NCBI GenBank assembly: GCA_017303805.1
Contig: JAFLBQ010000001.1
Location: forward strand, 310,001-374,000
Length of the DNA: 64,000 nucleotides
Direction: 5' to 3'
DNA from: Cytophagales bacterium
Lineage (GTDB): Bacteria > Bacteroidota > Bacteroidia > Cytophagales > Cyclobacteriaceae
Below, in pieces: positions 54,834 to 62,481 of the stretch. A program made the translations under genes and the position numbers. Positions within the stretch are counted from its first letter, which is position 1, and each line of letters opens with the position of its first letter. The notes below the pieces were generated by a model that saw only the letters and a list, made by a program, of their open reading frames with translations, ran no database searches and was not told the origin of the DNA.

Positions 54834-55178
54834 ATGCCACGTTCAGTAAACAGTGTTGCATCAAGAGCCAAGCGCAAGCGCGTGTTGGAACTGGCCAAAG
54901 GGTACTTTGGTCGTAAAAAAAATGTTTGGACTGTAGCGAAGAATGCAGTCGAAAAAGGGTTGGTATATGCCTACCGCGATCGGAAAGCCAGAAAGCGCGA
55001 TTTTCGTGCACTGTGGATTGCCCGTATTAATGCCGGGGTAAGAGTTCACGGTCTTTCGTACTCAGAGTTTATCGGCAAATTGAAAAAATCCGGAATTGAT
55101 TTGAACCGCAAGGTTTTGGCTGACTTGGCCATGAATCATCCGGCAGCTTTCGAAGCTGTTGTGAAAAAGGTGAAATAA
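54834..55178 (+). CDS. rplT: ribosomal protein bL20
   Basis: A 114-residue basic protein with the bL20 pattern: [26 protein letters not shown] in outline, then [51 protein letters not shown]. It is a primary 23S rRNA binder needed early in large-subunit assembly. A strong terminator follows 26 bases after the stop, closing the thrS-infC-rpmI-rplT unit. Confidence 0.98.
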
Positions 55179-55204
55179 TCCTTTCGGATCGCATCAAAAT
55201 TAAG

Positions 55205-55232
55205 CCCCGCTCAGTCGGGGTTTTTTATTTTT
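55205..55232 (+). terminator. rho-independent terminator after rplT
   Basis: CCCCG pairs with CGGGG around CTCAGT, followed directly by TTTTTTATTTTT. A textbook intrinsic terminator. Confidence 0.9.
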
Positions 55233-55237
55233 GGGGT

Positions 55238-55429
55238 ATGTCAAAGTCGAAAAAAATTTTTGCAGGGCTGGCTGCAGTATTTGTTGTGTTGCTATTCTAT
55301 GCAAGTTATGATATCAGTTCCCGAACTACTTTTCCAGGCTCTAAACCACAGCTAAAGGAACGGATTGAAGAGCAATTTTTGAAAAGAGATAGCTTACAGA
55401 AGGACTCAACAAAAGCCATTCAACGATAA
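55238..55429 (+). CDS. small single-pass membrane protein
   Basis: A 63-residue protein starting MSKSKKIFAGLAAVFVVLLFYASYDI: a basic cytoplasmic lead, one transmembrane helix (about residues 8-24), then a charged tail (KERIEEQFLKRDSLQKDS) that can form a helix. Similar tiny membrane proteins occur widely in Bacteroidota with no assigned function. It starts only six bases after the rplT terminator T tract, so its mRNA must begin inside or just before that structure or arise by read-through. Confidence 0.6.
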   Translation: MSKSKKIFAGLAAVFVVLLFYASYDISSRTTFPGSKPQLKERIEEQFLKRDSLQKDSTKAIQR

Positions 55430-55474
55430 ATCCGGCAGGTAGTCAGAATTAGCTGCATCCAATCGGATGAGAAT

Positions 55475-55504
55475 TTTGTGATTTAATACCCTGCTGTACT
55501 TTAG
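55475..55504 (+). promoter_or_regulatory. candidate promoter at the left 73-bp repeat
   Basis: TTTG at 55475-55478 and TACTTTAG at 55497-55504 (seven of eight matches to TAnnTTTG) are separated by 18 bases, close to the Bacteroidota promoter layout. Transcription would start within the first bases of the 73-bp repeat, which ends in a terminator-like hairpin, so a short non-coding transcript is possible. Confidence 0.35.
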
Positions 55505-55574
55505 CATCAGATTAAAGCCAACTATAGACAAGATTATCCCCCGGGGTCCAGGACTTTGGGGGATTTTCTTTTTA
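55502..55574 (+). repeat. 73-bp perfect direct repeat, left copy
   Basis: Identical over 73 bases to 59646-59718. It starts TAGCATCAGATTAAAGCC and its right half forms a hairpin, ATCCCCC pairing with GGGGGAT with an inner GTC/GAC stem, followed by TTTTCTTTTT. This is a terminator-like structure. The copy lies 72 bases after the small membrane protein gene and 106 bases before the sigma factor gene. Confidence 0.95.
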
Positions 55575-55680
55575 AGCCCATCTTGAATTCAGTACATTCG
55601 TTATGCTGAGGCAACCCTTTTTAATTCTGTTCCGTAAAGGGTAAAATTTTTCGAACCTAAACTCTTATTTAAACACCCTT

Positions 55681-56223
55681 ATGCACTTGCTGATACAGGG
55701 CTGCAAGCGTAACGATCGCGATAGCCAGCGTTTGCTCTATCAGCATTATTATTCCTATGCCTTGGCGATTTGTATTCGCTATTCACGCAGTATGGTCGAA
55801 GCAAAGGAAGTAGTTAACGATGGGTTTCTGAAAGTATTTGATAAGATAGATCAGTATAACGCTGATTATCCTTTTAAAGGTTGGTTGAGGAGGATTATGA
55901 TTAACGCTTCGATTGATCAATACCGGAAAGAAATTAAGCATGCACACCAGGCACCGGTAGAATATGCAAATAAAGTGCATGACCAACCAGTAGCGGTCAA
56001 TAACCTGGCGCACGAAGAGTTGATGACACTGGTTCAGCGATTAACTCCTGCTTATCGGGCGGTGTTTAACCTCTACGTAATTGATGGTTACACCCATAAG
56101 GAGATAGGGAAGTTGTTAAATATTTCGGAGGGAACCTCGAAATCGAATTTGTTGAAGGCACGTGAAAATCTGAGAACTATGTTGGAAGGAATGAATGAGA
56201 TGCCGTATGGAAAAGCTAACTGA
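55681..56223 (+). CDS. ECF-type RNA polymerase sigma factor
   Basis: A 180-residue sigma-70 family protein. Region 2 is visible as SQRLLYQHYYSYALAICIRYS, EAKEVVNDGFLKVFDKIDQY and FKGWLRRIMINASIDQYRK, and region 4 as LTPAYRAVFNLYVIDGYTHKEIGKLLNISEGTSKSNLLKAR. No region 1 or 3 is present. Its last 17 bases overlap the next gene, a membrane protein with an anti-sigma-like N terminus, which suggests a regulator pair. It heads a five-gene unit enclosed by the two 73-bp repeats. Confidence 0.93.
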   Translation: MHLLIQGCKRNDRDSQRLLYQHYYSYALAICIRYSRSMVEAKEVVNDGFLKVFDKIDQYNADYPFKGWLRRIMINASIDQYRKEIKHAHQAPVEYANKVHDQPVAVNNLAHEELMTLVQRLTPAYRAVFNLYVIDGYTHKEIGKLLNISEGTSKSNLLKARENLRTMLEGMNEMPYGKAN

Positions 56224-57412
56224 CGAAGAACTGGATTCAGCATTTAAAACGGCTGCCGAAGGCAACACTCCGCCTTATGAGGCTACCGCTTGGGATGCGA
56301 TGATGAAAAAACTGGATGCGCCAAGGCCCATACCAGTATGGAGAAAATGGTCGCCCATAATTTTGGTTGGTGTTCTCGTTTTTTTTAGTGGAGTTTGGGT
56401 TGGCCGCAGCACTGAAGAAAAATCTAGCGAAGTAATCCCGATTGAAAATAAGCTTTCAATAGAAGGCAGAGTAAGTGACAAACAACACCCTATAGCCGAT
56501 AATAATAAAGTGCCGGGAGTAGTCTTAACTGAGGACAAGATTCAAACATCAAGTAGTGACCGATCAATTACCAGATTAAAAGTTAGCTCTGGATCCATTG
56601 ATTTAAAAGAAAAGCAGCAGGAGGAAGTTGATTTGAAATCATTGATAGAAAATGAACAACAAGAAATTCTGGTACAAGAGCTACCCAATTTGCTCGAAAA
56701 TGAACATGTGAATGAATTCTGGGTAGAGCGTCAAAGTGAAAATATCAAAGATGACTCATTGGCAATCACAAAAACTGAAGTTGATTCTCTGAACATTAGC
56801 AAGGAGCTGCATGATAAACCAGGTGGTAGAAGAGTTTATGGGTTGTTTATCAGGCTCCTTGCTTCTCCTGATCTTTCATCTATCAAGTTCGGGCCAACCA
56901 AACTTGGATCCAACATAGGTGTAGTAGGGGAGTTTTCTTTTTCGGATCGGATTTCGATTTCCACTGGAGTACTTCGTGCCAAGAAGAATTATGAATCTTA
57001 CCAGAAGGAAGCTTATGGCTCGAGCGCCCGCCATCTGGTTGGCAGTTGCAGTATTCTGGATGTTCCTGTTAACCTAACTTATTCGTTTCCTTCCAAAAGC
57101 AGGTTTTCGATTTATACAACTGTAGGGGCATCATCTTATATTATGTTGCGCGAAGACTATGTGTACACCATCAAATCCAATACGGGCGACCGGGTATATC
57201 CGTCACAGGCTATTCGCAAAAACAATGAGTGGTTTAAAGTGCTGAATGTTGCGGTTGGCTTACAATACAGAATAGCTCCGCGATGGCACATTCAACTTGA
57301 GCCATTTATAAAAGCACCTTTGGCAGATTTGGGCGAACGTAACGTGCGTCTATCCAGTATTGGAGCGTTTGGTGCACTCCGTTATCAATTAGCAAAAATT
57401 AAAACCCCCTGA
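56207..57412 (+). CDS. membrane protein with anti-sigma-like N terminus and C-terminal barrel domain
   Basis: A 401-residue protein. Residues 1-45 form a cytoplasmic helical segment (LTDEELDSAFKTAAEGNTPPYEATAWDAMMKKLD) like those of Bacteroidota anti-sigma proteins. One transmembrane helix follows (SPIILVGVLVFFSGVWVG, about 49-66), then a long charged, low-complexity linker (about 70-210). The last 190 residues are strand-rich with aromatic ends (GLFIRLLASPDL, ISISTGVLRAKKNYESY, VPVNLTYSFPSKSRFSIYTTVGAS, AVGLQYRIAPRWHIQLEPFIKAPL), typical of the outer membrane beta-barrel fold. One chain would thus touch both membranes or hold a periplasmic sensor. It overlaps the sigma factor gene and is probably its regulator. 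The ATG at 56207 is preferred over one four codons upstream. Confidence 0.75.
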   Translation: MEKLTDEELDSAFKTAAEGNTPPYEATAWDAMMKKLDAPRPIPVWRKWSPIILVGVLVFFSGVWVGRSTEEKSSEVIPIENKLSIEGRVSDKQHPIADNNKVPGVVLTEDKIQTSSSDRSITRLKVSSGSIDLKEKQQEEVDLKSLIENEQQEILVQELPNLLENEHVNEFWVERQSENIKDDSLAITKTEVDSLNISKELHDKPGGRRVYGLFIRLLASPDLSSIKFGPTKLGSNIGVVGEFSFSDRISISTGVLRAKKNYESYQKEAYGSSARHLVGSCSILDVPVNLTYSFPSKSRFSIYTTVGASSYIMLREDYVYTIKSNTGDRVYPSQAIRKNNEWFKVLNVAVGLQYRIAPRWHIQLEPFIKAPLADLGERNVRLSSIGAFGALRYQLAKIKTP

Positions 57413-57414
57413 AT

Positions 57415-58248
57415 ATGAAAGCTAAATCGTTTCACCGGCTAACTGGTGTTGTTGTCTTTGCGTGGTTGTTGATCATTGCGGGTTGTTCCAGCAACGATGA
57501 GCCTAAGCCTATAGACTGTAACGCCACGGATCTTGCAATAACACTATCTACCAAGACTGACCCAGTCGATTGTGGTGTAAGCAATGGATCAATTACGGTG
57601 TCAGCAACTGGTGGTGAAGCACCCTATCAATTTAAATTAAGTACGGGTAGTTACGGAAGTGGCACTACATTCAATAATCTGGGTGCCGGCTCATTTACCT
57701 TTATGGTTAAGGATGCCAATGGTTGCGAAAGGACGCTTGCCGGAATTGTATTATCAGCTCCTTCTTCGCCTGTGGCGGGTGCATCAACTATTTCAAGTCA
57801 TACCAACTGTCTTACTCCAAATGGGTCAATCACAATACATGTAACAGGTGGTACACCTCCATACAAATACAAGATTGGAAGCGGGGCATTCGGCTCGTCT
57901 AATAATTTTTCGGAACTAAAAGCTGGAAGTTACGCAATAACCGTGCAGGATGATGCCGATTGTTCAATAACAATAAATGATGTTGTAGCAAGCAACACCA
58001 ATGTTAGTTACGTAGCTGACATTAAACCTATTTTGCAAACCAGTTGTATAAAGTCGGGTTGCCATAATGGAGATAATGGGGCAGACCGTAATTGGAGTGT
58101 TTTTGCGAACGTAAGGGCAAGTGCCCAGGCAATCAAAACAAGAACCGGAAACAAATCCATGCCAGCCGATATTGCACCCACTGGCTTACCACAAAACCAA
58201 ATTGACCTTATTGCATGTTGGGTTGATAGCGGGGCGCAAGATAATTAA
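57415..58248 (+). CDS. lipoprotein with two SprB-type repeats and a cytochrome-c-like domain
   Basis: A 277-residue lipoprotein with lipobox IIAGC near residue 24. Two SprB-like repeats follow: GVSNGSITVSATGGEAPYQFKLS with FNNLGAGSFTFMVKDANGC, and LTPNGSITIHVTGGTPPYKYKIG with FSELKAGSYAITVQDDADC. The last 80 residues resemble planctomycete-type cytochrome domains (YVADIKPILQTSC, then GCHNG, and SMPADIAPTGLPQNQIDLIACWVDSGA). The haem motif is CIKSGCH, CX4CH rather than CX2CH. The final IDLIACWVDSGA is typical of such cytochromes. It probably carries electrons at the outer membrane. Start is two bases after the previous stop. Confidence 0.85.
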   Translation: MKAKSFHRLTGVVVFAWLLIIAGCSSNDEPKPIDCNATDLAITLSTKTDPVDCGVSNGSITVSATGGEAPYQFKLSTGSYGSGTTFNNLGAGSFTFMVKDANGCERTLAGIVLSAPSSPVAGASTISSHTNCLTPNGSITIHVTGGTPPYKYKIGSGAFGSSNNFSELKAGSYAITVQDDADCSITINDVVASNTNVSYVADIKPILQTSCIKSGCHNGDNGADRNWSVFANVRASAQAIKTRTGNKSMPADIAPTGLPQNQIDLIACWVDSGAQDN

Positions 58249-58252
58249 TGAT

Positions 58253-58786
58253 ATGAGAAATCATATTGCACTGATTCTGGTCTTGATTGCGCACTCTGCT
58301 ATGGGGCAGAAATACACCCTTGAAAAGTCAAAAGTAGTTTTCTTTTCAGATGCGGCTATTGAAGATATCCGTGCAGAGAACTCTAAGGCACTTAGTATTT
58401 ATAATAGCGAGACAAACGAGGTGGTATTCTCCATTCCAATTGCTCAATTTAATTTCGAAAATTCAACAATGCGGGTGCATTTCAATGAAAAATACATGGA
58501 GACTGAAAAACATCCAAATGCAACTTTTCAAGGAAAGTTTAATCAATTCACTTTTGAAAGCGATCAAACTCAGCACGTAGTAGCTACGGGTAAGCTCGCC
58601 ATTCATGGTGTTACCCGTGAGGTTGAGATACCGGGCACTATCCAGGTAACTGAGCAAAGAATTTTAGCCAAAGCTATCTTTATGATAAAGCTCGCAGACT
58701 ATAATATTAAGATACCTCAATTGCTGTGGCAAAAAATTGCGGAACAGGTTGAGGTAACCGTTGAATTCACCTTTAGACCTCAATGA
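58253..58786 (+). CDS. YceI-family exported protein
   Basis: A 177-residue protein with a signal peptide (MRNHIALILVLIAHSAMGQ). The YceI lipocalin-like barrel is recognisable in KVVFFSDAAIEDIRAENSKAL, IPIAQFNFENSTMRVHFNEKYMETEKHPNATFQGKF and GKLAIHGVTREVEIPGTIQV. YceI proteins bind polyisoprenoids or other amphiphiles. The ATG at 58253 is used; a longer frame overlaps the cytochrome gene. Its end overlaps the next start by four bases (ATGA). Confidence 0.9.
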   Translation: MRNHIALILVLIAHSAMGQKYTLEKSKVVFFSDAAIEDIRAENSKALSIYNSETNEVVFSIPIAQFNFENSTMRVHFNEKYMETEKHPNATFQGKFNQFTFESDQTQHVVATGKLAIHGVTREVEIPGTIQVTEQRILAKAIFMIKLADYNIKIPQLLWQKIAEQVEVTVEFTFRPQ

Positions 58787-59643
58787 AAAAAATCCTAATA
58801 GCCTTGTTGATTTCCAACGTAAGTTTCGCGCAAAGCGATTTGTTAAACGAATTAGAAGAGCCGGATTCCAGGCCACAGCCAGTAGCGGCTACATTTATAG
58901 GCAGCCGGTTAGTAAACGGACAAACCATTGAAACCCGGCATAAAGGTGAACTGGAATTTATTTTTGCGCACAGGTTTGGCCGGCTTAATGAAGGTGCCTA
59001 TGAATTGTTTGGACTTGATCGGGCTTTTGTGCGGGTAGGTTTGGAGTACGGTATTACAAATAAGCTTAGCACAGGCTTTGGTCGTAATTCGGTGGACAAA
59101 ACTATGGATGGATACCTGCGGTATAAATTGTTAAGTCAGCAAAAAAATGAAATACCTTTAACCCTAACTGTGTTTACCAATGCGGCAGTCCGAACATCTC
59201 CCCGGACGAAGGATGCTGCATACGATATGCAACTGGAAGACAGAATGTCTTACACTACGCAAATTTTAATAGCCCGGAGATTTAACCCGGTACTGTCGCT
59301 TCAAATCATGCCCACAATGGTTCACCGCAATACGGTTGATCAAAGTCGGGAAAAGAATGACCAGTTTGCCTTGGGATTCGGTGGTCGGTTAAAGATAACA
59401 CGAAGTGTTGCTCTCAATACCGAATACTATTATCGGCTTGGGGTGCCGGTTGCTAATCAATATTATAATGCTTTGGGGTTTGGAATTGATATTGAAACAG
59501 GTGGGCATGTGTTTCAACTCGTGCTCACCAATACCCGTGGGCTAACAGAACGCGCTTACCTAACTGAAACGTCAGGAAATTTCTTTAATGGTGATATCCA
59601 TCTGGGTTTTAATGTAACACGGTCTTTTCCGGTAAAGAGATAA
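58783..59643 (+). CDS. DUF5777-type beta-barrel protein
   Basis: A 286-residue exported protein (MKKILIALLISNVSFAQ). The mature chain matches DUF5777: ATFIGSRLVNGQTIETRHKGELEFIFAHRFGRLNEGAYELFGLD, then VRVGLEYGITNKLSTGFGRN, LRYKLLSQQ and the end HLGFNVTRSFPVKR, with alternating strands typical of an outer membrane barrel. Such proteins are often found next to YceI and cytochrome genes in Bacteroidota, as here, so a joint role in an envelope redox or lipid process is likely but unproven. The right 73-bp repeat begins two bases after the stop. Confidence 0.85.
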   Translation: MKKILIALLISNVSFAQSDLLNELEEPDSRPQPVAATFIGSRLVNGQTIETRHKGELEFIFAHRFGRLNEGAYELFGLDRAFVRVGLEYGITNKLSTGFGRNSVDKTMDGYLRYKLLSQQKNEIPLTLTVFTNAAVRTSPRTKDAAYDMQLEDRMSYTTQILIARRFNPVLSLQIMPTMVHRNTVDQSREKNDQFALGFGGRLKITRSVALNTEYYYRLGVPVANQYYNALGFGIDIETGGHVFQLVLTNTRGLTERAYLTETSGNFFNGDIHLGFNVTRSFPVKR

Positions 59644-59645
59644 GA

Positions 59646-59718
59646 TAGCATCAGATTAAAGCCAACTATAGACAAGATTATCCCCCGGGGTCCAGGACTT
59701 TGGGGGATTTTCTTTTTA
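59646..59718 (+). repeat. 73-bp perfect direct repeat, right copy
   Basis: Identical to 55502-55574. It begins two bases after the DUF5777 stop and its hairpin plus T tract is in the right place to end the sigma operon's transcript. The two copies start 4144 bases apart. Confidence 0.95.
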
Positions 59719-59740
59719 TGGCGGGTTGGGTTAGGTGCCT

Positions 59741-60208
59741 TTATAGTTCTGTGTTCACCTCGCTATAATTTGTTTTCGGCAAGCCTGTTTCTTTAAGTGC
59801 ATTGTAGCCACCTTTAATATTAATAACCTGCTTAATTCCACCGCTTTTAAAAATTGAAGCCGCAATTAACGACCGGTACCCTCCGGCACAATACAGGTAA
59901 TAAGTGCGCCTGGTAGAAAGATTATTCAGATTCTTATAAAGTTCGGATAAGGGTATGTTGTACGCCCCGATAATGTGTTCGCGTTCAAATTCACTTGCTC
60001 TGCGAACATCCAACAAAATACTATCCGAAGCATCGCGAAATAACGTAACGAACGCTGCCGGAGTAATTTCTTCTATCGTATCAATCACGTTGCCTGCGGC
60101 CTTCCAGGCTGCCATGCCTCCTCCCAGGTACCCCAGCACGTGGTCGTAGCCTACCCTTGCCAATCGTGTTACCACCTCCGCTTCGCGCCCGGCATCGCAC
60201 ACAAACAA
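59741..60208 (-). pseudogene. 5'-truncated remnant of MBL-fold/rhodanese protein
   Basis: The 155-residue frame begins abruptly at CDAGREAEVVTRLARVGYDHVLGYLGGGMAAW, which in Bacteroidota is the end of the first rhodanese domain of proteins of about 450-470 residues that start with a metallo-beta-lactamase domain. A second, complete rhodanese domain follows with DVRRASEFEREHIIGAYNIPLSEL and the active-site loop YCAGGYRS (Cys). The metallo-beta-lactamase domain and most of the first rhodanese are missing, and an in-frame TAG lies eight codons before the only plausible start (TTG at 60208). The single rhodanese domain could still fold, so it might survive as a small sulfurtransferase. Confidence 0.75.
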
Positions 60209-60324
60209 CCTTTGAGGTAGTAGCTAAATGGCCATTTCATACGTGGAGGGGTTGGTGCATCGCGGTAAAATTGAGCGAGTTGATTCAAGTAGTCTGTGAT
60301 GCCGGTTAGTCCAACGGATGATTT
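60209..60324 (-). pseudogene. unidentified coding fragment fused upstream of the rhodanese remnant
   Basis: On the minus strand, in a frame different from the rhodanese remnant, the sequence reads like real protein: SVGLTGITDYLNQLAQFYRD followed by APTPPRMKWPFSYYLKG. It starts after a TAA at 60325-60327, has no start codon at a sensible place, and loses protein character where the rhodanese similarity begins. It is probably part of another gene joined to the rhodanese remnant by a rearrangement. I do not recognise the parent family. Confidence 0.4.
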
Positions 60325-61680: not shown

Positions 61681-62481
61681 TTGAGAGTCCGGATAGTTTT
61701 TACACTGAAGAACAGGGGTGGTTATGTACCGTTCCATCATCAATTTTTGTTAGCTCAAACTATTAAAGGTTTGATCGTGCTGGGGCGAAACGAAAAGTTT
61801 TTTGCATTCACCCAATATAACTTTTCTGGTTTAAAGGGTCAGATCAAGATCAGCCGCAAGGGCCTTCACTTCTATTCTTCAAAGGTTACGCTGGTATTTT
61901 CTACGTCCGACAAAGAATTTCTGGATTACTTTGTCTCTGTGTTGTTTGCCCAAAAAGATTTGCTGGTTGGCGCCTTGCAACTCAGCCCCGAATCGGTGGA
62001 AACCGAAGAGCCGGTAGCCATTACTGATTCGGTAAAGTTCTTGTGCATTTCGCCCATTGTGCTGGTGCCGGCATCGTTTAACGATGAGAGCGGCAAGCGT
62101 TTTATCAGCCCCGAGTTAGACGAGTTTTCGGACTTGCTTTATGACAGTACCATTGCCCGCATGGAAGCAAGCGGCAAATATACGCCCGAGCAATTGGCCG
62201 ACTTCTACAAGTTTCAGTTAGTAGCCGATAAAGAGTATATTAATCGCATTCAGCAATCGCACAAAAAATTTGCGCGCATTTACCCCCTTTACGATCACGA
62301 CATAAAGTTTGAGGTACGCGGTTATACATTTCCTTTTACCTTGTTTGCACCACAGCCGGTGCAACAATTTGTGTACGAAAACGGGTTAGGCCATTTTTCG
62401 CACAAAGGTTTTGGAATGTTAGATGTTGCCAACGCAGATTCGGTTAAGCATGAGGCCGATCTGGAAGCAACGTATGCTTAG
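61681..62481 (+). CDS. orphan Cas6-fold protein
   Basis: A 266-residue protein with the features of the Cas6 repeat-processing endoribonuclease family. The N-terminal RAMP-like domain has VPFHHQFLLAQTIKGLI followed by FSGLKGQIKISRKGLHFYSSKVTLVFST. The central part has FLCISPIVLVP, and the C terminus the glycine-rich loop GLGHFSHKGFGML (residues 235-247). The catalytic His expected after helix 1 is not obvious; only His19 and His20 at the start of the helix are seen. No CRISPR array or other cas gene is in the window. The start is TTG at 61681. Its end overlaps the convergent T9SS plug gene by four bases. It may be a domesticated RNA-binding protein. Confidence 0.7.
   Translation: MRVRIVFTLKNRGGYVPFHHQFLLAQTIKGLIVLGRNEKFFAFTQYNFSGLKGQIKISRKGLHFYSSKVTLVFSTSDKEFLDYFVSVLFAQKDLLVGALQLSPESVETEEPVAITDSVKFLCISPIVLVPASFNDESGKRFISPELDEFSDLLYDSTIARMEASGKYTPEQLADFYKFQLVADKEYINRIQQSHKKFARIYPLYDHDIKFEVRGYTFPFTLFAPQPVQQFVYENGLGHFSHKGFGMLDVANADSVKHEADLEATYA

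Follow-up and report, generated by a model that had tools for sequence, protein, structure and literature searches.

A 73-bp element that stands twice in a window of 64,000 nucleotides (the whole stretch of DNA analysed, positions 310,001 to 374,000 of contig JAFLBQ010000001.1 from a Cytophagales bacterium of the family Cyclobacteriaceae) probably belongs to a family of small-RNA genes, with the first copy as the presumed ancestral gene and the second as a duplicate peculiar to this strain; this is the best explanation overall. The two copies are identical at 73/73 positions, an identity that is not due to chance, lie 4144 bp apart from start to start (Table 1) and have between them a five-gene operon for an extracytoplasmic function (ECF)-type sigma factor. 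A preliminary description of this DNA had reported both the enclosing pair and a strong hairpin with a T tract in each copy, and it was right on both counts: five open reading frames (ORFs) lie between the repeats, hairpin and T tract are present in both, and the predicted fold of copy 1 has a free energy of -25.1 kcal/mol (z -3.5) that 0/200 shuffles equalled. The genome itself holds two strong copies only, a whole-genome search having yielded no third at E ≤ 0.001, and the next-best covariance-model matches lie at E ≥ 0.069.

Evidence for a probable RNA gene

The 73-mer is very probably the gene for a short RNA whose transcription and size can be predicted from the features that follow. When copy 1 is compared with the single copy of another genome of the genus (G017) all 73 positions agree, whilst identity falls to 47-74% in four neighbouring segments and to 54% at the third codon positions of the sigma gene. 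A -7 box with at most one mismatch to TAnnTTTG, the Bacteroidota -7 consensus as given in PMC7366714 and PMC9723704, was found in 140 of 150 sequence-distinct copies (45 of them perfect) and in about 30/150 letter-shuffled upstream regions, and in 136 of the 150 the best box starts at -12 to -14 from the start of GATTAAAG; these promoter-scored copies are related rather than independent, and two of an original 152 were dropped for having no T tract. The predicted RNA start adjoins ATTAAAGCC.

The hairpin has been kept by compensating changes. Among 53 diverse copies (alignment A2, comprising 53 of 57 cluster representatives, with L143, L204, L211 and L213 left out and the window sequence standing for L003) 91.2% of pair cells are standard pairs, compared with 75.6% in shuffles, and all 13 hairpin pairs show two-sided changes. 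The covariation score was 0.500 as against 0.215 in shuffles, with 0/500 shuffles as high and a maximum of 0.144 when the structure was slid along the alignment, figures that are favoured both by the structure having been derived from the same alignment and by the relatedness of the sequences. Outside the hairpin, the 5' 20 nt are unpaired and form the most conserved part of the element. A coding function was considered and rejected, the predicted RNA having no ATG, GTG or TTG within its first 30 nt and the species differing by 1-nt indels. The conservation, promoter box, covariation, copy number and position of the element are shown by the sequences themselves.

It might be asked whether the element is only a conserved intrinsic terminator, copy 1 ending the rplT-orf63 transcript and copy 2 that of the operon, with no separate RNA function. 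Both copies do lie at gene ends with a strong hairpin and T tract, and copy 2 is without a promoter match, but this reading is unlikely, since the most conserved stretch is unpaired and precedes the hairpin, and a terminator by itself would need no such near-invariant nucleotides. Nor would termination account for a promoter box just before the element in so many copies, it explains the tandem units and arrays described below poorly, and another terminator-like sequence (55202-55232) already stands between rplT and orf63. The suggestion in the preliminary description that the operon is insulated by a duplicated terminator therefore survives in part: both copies hold terminators, but the account is incomplete in that it leaves aside the element's own promoter box and the 20 nt that precede the hairpin.

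Genomic address, copy number and distribution

At E ≤ 0.001 the 73-mer was found in 56/62 genomes of the genus, including 43 of the 46 high-quality ones; 47 of the 56 carriers have one match and nine have two or three. (Alignment A1 comprises 39 of the 44 genus-search matches, own copy 2, G006, G024, G035 and one truncated G033 copy being left out.) Many dispersed copies after unrelated genes would have marked it as a common repeated terminator, a possibility named in the preliminary description, and this is not what two copies in the own genome and two or three in only nine of 62 genomes amount to. As for copy 1, rplT or orf63 stands beside the element at E ≤ 1e-6 in 25 of 29 examined loci; two of the remaining four (L020, L024) begin 150 bp or less from the element, one (L025) has a weak orf63 match and one (L007) is that of G031, to which we return. 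Among 92 records with the exact 20-mer core, at least one anchor gene was seen in the fetched sequence of 86 and none in that of six, whilst orf63 was detected in 75, in 74 of which it lies on the same strand and no more than 400 bp upstream of the nearest element.

What comes after the element differs between relatives. It may be the whole operon (e.g. G017, G026, G014), the SprB-YceI-DUF5777 part of it (G007, G009) or, with the operon absent and the copy single (G008, G012, G023), directly the sodium:solute-symporter-type (SSS) gene that normally stands after the operon. Relatives keep the operon, a part of it or the next gene behind one copy at this place, so that the operon has long stood beside a single element and is not a unit that arrived with two. 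One genome bin (G723) has two rplT-orf63-element loci on separate contigs (L402 on C113, L403 on C267), perhaps two strains binned together.

Beyond the genus, 390 genomes were sampled from the GTDB family, and model R2 matched 120 of them at E ≤ 1e-4, belonging to 18 of the 84 genera; G744, G202, G769, G786 and G846 score 4e-6 to 6e-5 in this search and may be chance matches. Of 395 genomes sampled from across the phylum 51 matched R2 at E ≤ 0.01, four of them below 1e-10, all from the same family, and the next best at 5.3e-5; the matches beyond the top four are treated as terminator look-alikes. With model R1, 12 of 291 genomes of the order had a match, one of them outside the family (E 0.009). 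In these searches 13-17 candidates were scored per genome under stricter filters, so that copy numbers are floors and weak matches were lost. Matching family genomes carry from one to at least 13 copies, the upper figure being reached by G881 and G949. Named carriers among the matches listed are Ohtaekwangia, Chryseolinea, Pseudochryseolinea, Parachryseolinea, Chryseosolibacter, Dawidia and Chryseotalea, and the other matches listed are metagenome-assembled genomes labelled Cyclobacteriaceae, Flammeovirgaceae, Cytophagales, Bacteroidetes and, in one case, 'uncultured Bacteroides'.

Copies are frequently clustered. Two occur in 32 of the 92 records with the 20-mer and three in one, with 31 of 34 spacings at 166-188 bp, and G322 holds arrays of five and four near-identical copies at steps of about 264 bp (L234, L236, L240, L243; C48:290853-294458), of which those read have a promoter-like box. 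Such tandem units and arrays fit RNA genes better than they fit a leader or a bare terminator.

A search of Rfam with positions 55000-60300 gave no match at gathering score, and five further element loci gave nothing at E ≤ 1. No earlier report of the RNA was found in a search of the open-access literature, although surveys of structured RNAs may hold one.

The sigma operon and the second copy

The genes upstream of copy 1 are thrS, infC, rpmI and rplT (named from their translations) and orf63, and copy 2 is followed by a minus-strand ORF with a rhodanese domain and a ychF-like gene. The features of the element and of the operon are collected in Table 1. That the beta-barrel protein encoded by the second gene is the partner of the sigma factor is a guess from gene position. 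The SprB-repeat protein has a cytochrome-like C-terminal stretch with a CxxxxCH motif, read by eye and not from a database match. Further downstream, the ORF at 61681-62481 carries a C-terminal GHFSHKGFGMLDV stretch, which we take to resemble the glycine-rich loop of Cas6 proteins.

Table 1. Features of the 73-bp element and of the enclosed operon, in window coordinates
Feature	Position	Strand	Remarks
Predicted primary-sigma promoter of copy 1	55475..55504	+	-33-like TTTG 55475-55478, 18-nt spacer, -7 box
Copy 1 -7 box TACTTTAG	55497-55504	+	one mismatch to TAnnTTTG
Copy 1 of the 73-mer, candidate small-RNA gene	55502..55574	+	predicted RNA ~55509-55573
5' segment GATTAAAGCCAACTATAGAC, near-invariant, unpaired in predicted fold; candidate pairing or protein-binding segment	55510..55529	+	exact 20-mer in 92 genome-contig records
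Intrinsic terminator hairpin, then T tract	55530..55570	+	13/13 pairs with two-sided changes in 53 diverse copies
Copy 2 of the 73-mer, candidate 3'-UTR (untranslated region) copy	59646..59718	+	hairpin identical to copy 1
orf63, small conserved 63-codon ORF, usual neighbour of the element	55238..55429	+	detected in 75/92 records with the 20-mer
ECF-type promoter motif of operon, GGCAACCC...CCGT	55610..55635	+	between copy 1 terminator and sigma start
ECF-type sigma factor	55681..56223	+	Pfam Sigma70_r2, Sigma70_r4_2, Sigma70_ECF
Protein with C-terminal OMP beta-barrel domain	56195..57412	+	Pfam OMP_b-brl
SprB-repeat protein	57415..58248	+	Pfam SprB
YceI-like protein	58253..58786	+	Pfam YceI
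DUF5777 beta-barrel protein	58783..59643	+	Pfam DUF5777, E 2.5e-89

The GGCAACCC...CCGT pattern was found upstream of 23/23 orthologous sigma genes (at least 60% at the amino acid level, the own gene included; shuffled mean 0.022 per set) and of one of nine more distant ones (below 60%). Since this ECF-type motif is conserved upstream of orthologous sigma genes, the sigma factor probably drives its own operon, and the motif gives a handle on its regulon. An important consideration is whether the element could be a cis-acting leader or attenuator of the operon, with transcription from the copy 1 promoter reading through the terminator upon binding of a signal. The element does lie upstream of the operon, of part of it or of the SSS gene in most loci, but in 23/23 loci an ECF-type motif of the operon's own stands after the terminator, and extra copies stand away from operon genes (in the six of the 92 records without an anchor, and in G003, G005, G014, G030, G033 and G713) or in arrays. 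In addition, a reading by eye, without computation, revealed no antiterminator partner for the C-run in the 5' part, and altogether a leader is quite improbable.

Copy 2 starts 2 nt past the stop codon of the DUF5777 gene, and the place of its -7 box (59641-59648) reads TAAGATAG, with two mismatches to TAnnTTTG and hence no promoter match. A 1041-bp query reaching from the DUF5777 end across copy 2 to the rhodanese ORF did not find the DUF5777 end joined to a whole element in any of the other 61 genus genomes, and in the other eight multi-match genomes of the genus no extra copy lies behind DUF5777. Because it is absent behind the operon in those 61 genomes, copy 2 is, on the comparison of genomes, a recent addition in this strain. 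An assembly artefact as its origin was considered and rejected, the junction of DUF5777 stop and copy 2 being unique sequence within an 818-kb contig. In relatives the operon is followed by the symporter gene, which here lies 131 kb further on at C1:501329 (G000 C1:369718-501329; window 59718 onwards); this points to a duplication that coincided with a local rearrangement right behind the operon. At 155 aa the rhodanese-domain ORF (59741-60208, minus strand) is shorter than the open frames of about 475-495 aa that hold its best matches in other genomes of the genus (e.g. G060), and it has the appearance of a C-terminal fragment that the rearrangement left behind.

The preliminary description had taken the perfect identity of the repeats to imply recent copying or gene conversion. 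Copy 2 is indeed recent, but identity alone is insufficient to establish this, as the single copy of G017 also matches at 73/73 positions, and gene conversion is not needed to explain it. It had further proposed that the unit could be a transferred cassette or could be lost as a circle; on such a reading the repeats would be sites of recombination or attachment. Identical direct repeats do enclose the operon, and homologous recombination could in principle excise a 4.1-kb circle, but the proposal fails: in relatives the operon occupies this same place behind a lone copy, and a cassette is now very improbable. Where relatives lack the operon (G008, G012, G023) they keep the single copy and then the next gene, and the two-copy form occurs in the own genome and in none of the other 61 of the genus. 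Pfam revealed no recombinase or transposase among the five genes, in agreement with the earlier remark that no transposase or integrase is seen; the exact 20-mer had no match in IMG/VR, and blastn with a 121-bp stretch found none in phages or plasmids.

Proposed action and relation to known small RNAs

In the mechanism that we propose, RNA polymerase with the primary Bacteroidota sigma factor would start at about 55509 and end transcription at the T tract, so that the RNA would measure about 65 nt. The 20 nt at its 5' end would be single-stranded and near invariant, whereas the 3' half would form the terminator hairpin, drifting in sequence whilst keeping its pairing. By analogy with the FopS RNAs described below, the RNA would act in trans, its 5' segment pairing with messages near their start codons; a protein reading the invariant 5' segment is the alternative, and of these pairing is somewhat favoured on the analysis presented here. 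The terminator of copy 1 would separate it from the sigma operon with its own ECF-type promoter, and copy 2 would terminate the operon mRNA. A further RNA may be released from the 3' end of that mRNA via copy 2, as one FopS member stems from a 3' UTR, although such processing is doubtful. Taken together, a new small RNA (sRNA) family of a Cytophagales clade, with at least 13 copies in one genus, that regulates messages through its 20-nt 5' segment, and an ECF-sigma operon that captured a copy as its 3' UTR, can be offered only tentatively as a combined account; if it is true, activation of the sigma operon would bring with it a higher dose of the RNA.

A number of observations weigh against the small-RNA reading or its parts. 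A wobble-tolerant search of nine genomes for the complement of the 5' segment gave 91 matches, of which 30 are the elements themselves, leaving 61 as against 38 for a reversed control; in the 60 of these 61 contexts that were read no gene recurs at a start codon, the remaining one lying within one of the fetched stretches, and the pair that did recur (L315, L339) lies within coding sequence. The start regions of 12 neighbouring genes showed no pairing beyond chance, the best being osmC, for which 3/50 shuffled seeds did as well. As to distribution, 66 of the 84 family genera have no R2 match, six of the 62 genus genomes (three of high quality) lack a 73-mer match and that of G035 is a 38-nt fragment unconfirmed by the model, whilst 4 kb separate the element from orf63 in G031 (L147) and about 1.9 kb separate it from the sigma gene in G019. 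Lastly, the Rfam family RAGATH-25 matched both copies on their opposite strand, but below its gathering score of 49 (19.7 and 15.5 bits; E 0.23 and 3.7), and these matches are taken as chance.

To our knowledge, small RNAs have been little explored in Bacteroidota other than Bacteroides and Flavobacterium. The element provides a precisely bounded candidate RNA across 18 genera of one family, with named strains among its carriers, and combines one invariant segment with natural lineages that have one, two or at least 13 copies. Identical repeats also invite the tempting misreading as cassette ends that is corrected here.

The closest likeness is to the FopS sRNAs of Bacteroides thetaiotaomicron, which the available text of PMC11697453 describes as multicopy paralogues with sigma-ABfr promoters, comprising intergenic members and one derived from a 3' UTR, each a short RNA that pairs near start codons through a single-stranded 5' segment and ends in a stable terminator. 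The element shares with them, by prediction and covariation, the conserved single-stranded 5' segment and terminator hairpin; judged by sequence only, the TAnnTTTG promoter (copy 1 with one mismatch, copy 2 with two); and several paralogous copies per genome, though 47 of 56 genus carriers have one and the own genome has two, one of them without a promoter match. Unlike FopS, it keeps an ancestral chromosomal address by rplT-orf63 and forms tandem pairs or arrays. FopS-type traits beyond architecture are pairing with the start regions of susC-type mRNAs and binding by RbpB. The FopS structure is said in the same source to be deposited in Rfam (PMC11697453); the likeness is one of described architecture and not of sequence, the element having no Rfam match and the presence of a FopS model in release 15 being unconfirmed. 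GibS of B. thetaiotaomicron, described in PMC7366714 as an intergenic sRNA with a conserved unstructured 5' seed, resembles the element, again by description, in its intergenic place and conserved unstructured 5' segment, but has known targets and two seeds. Rfp18 of Flavobacterium, for which PMC9723704 predicts pairing via a third stem-loop, is like the element a conserved candidate trans-acting sRNA of Bacteroidota, but differs in architecture. The element itself makes a good candidate for a small-RNA family that is new but of a known kind.

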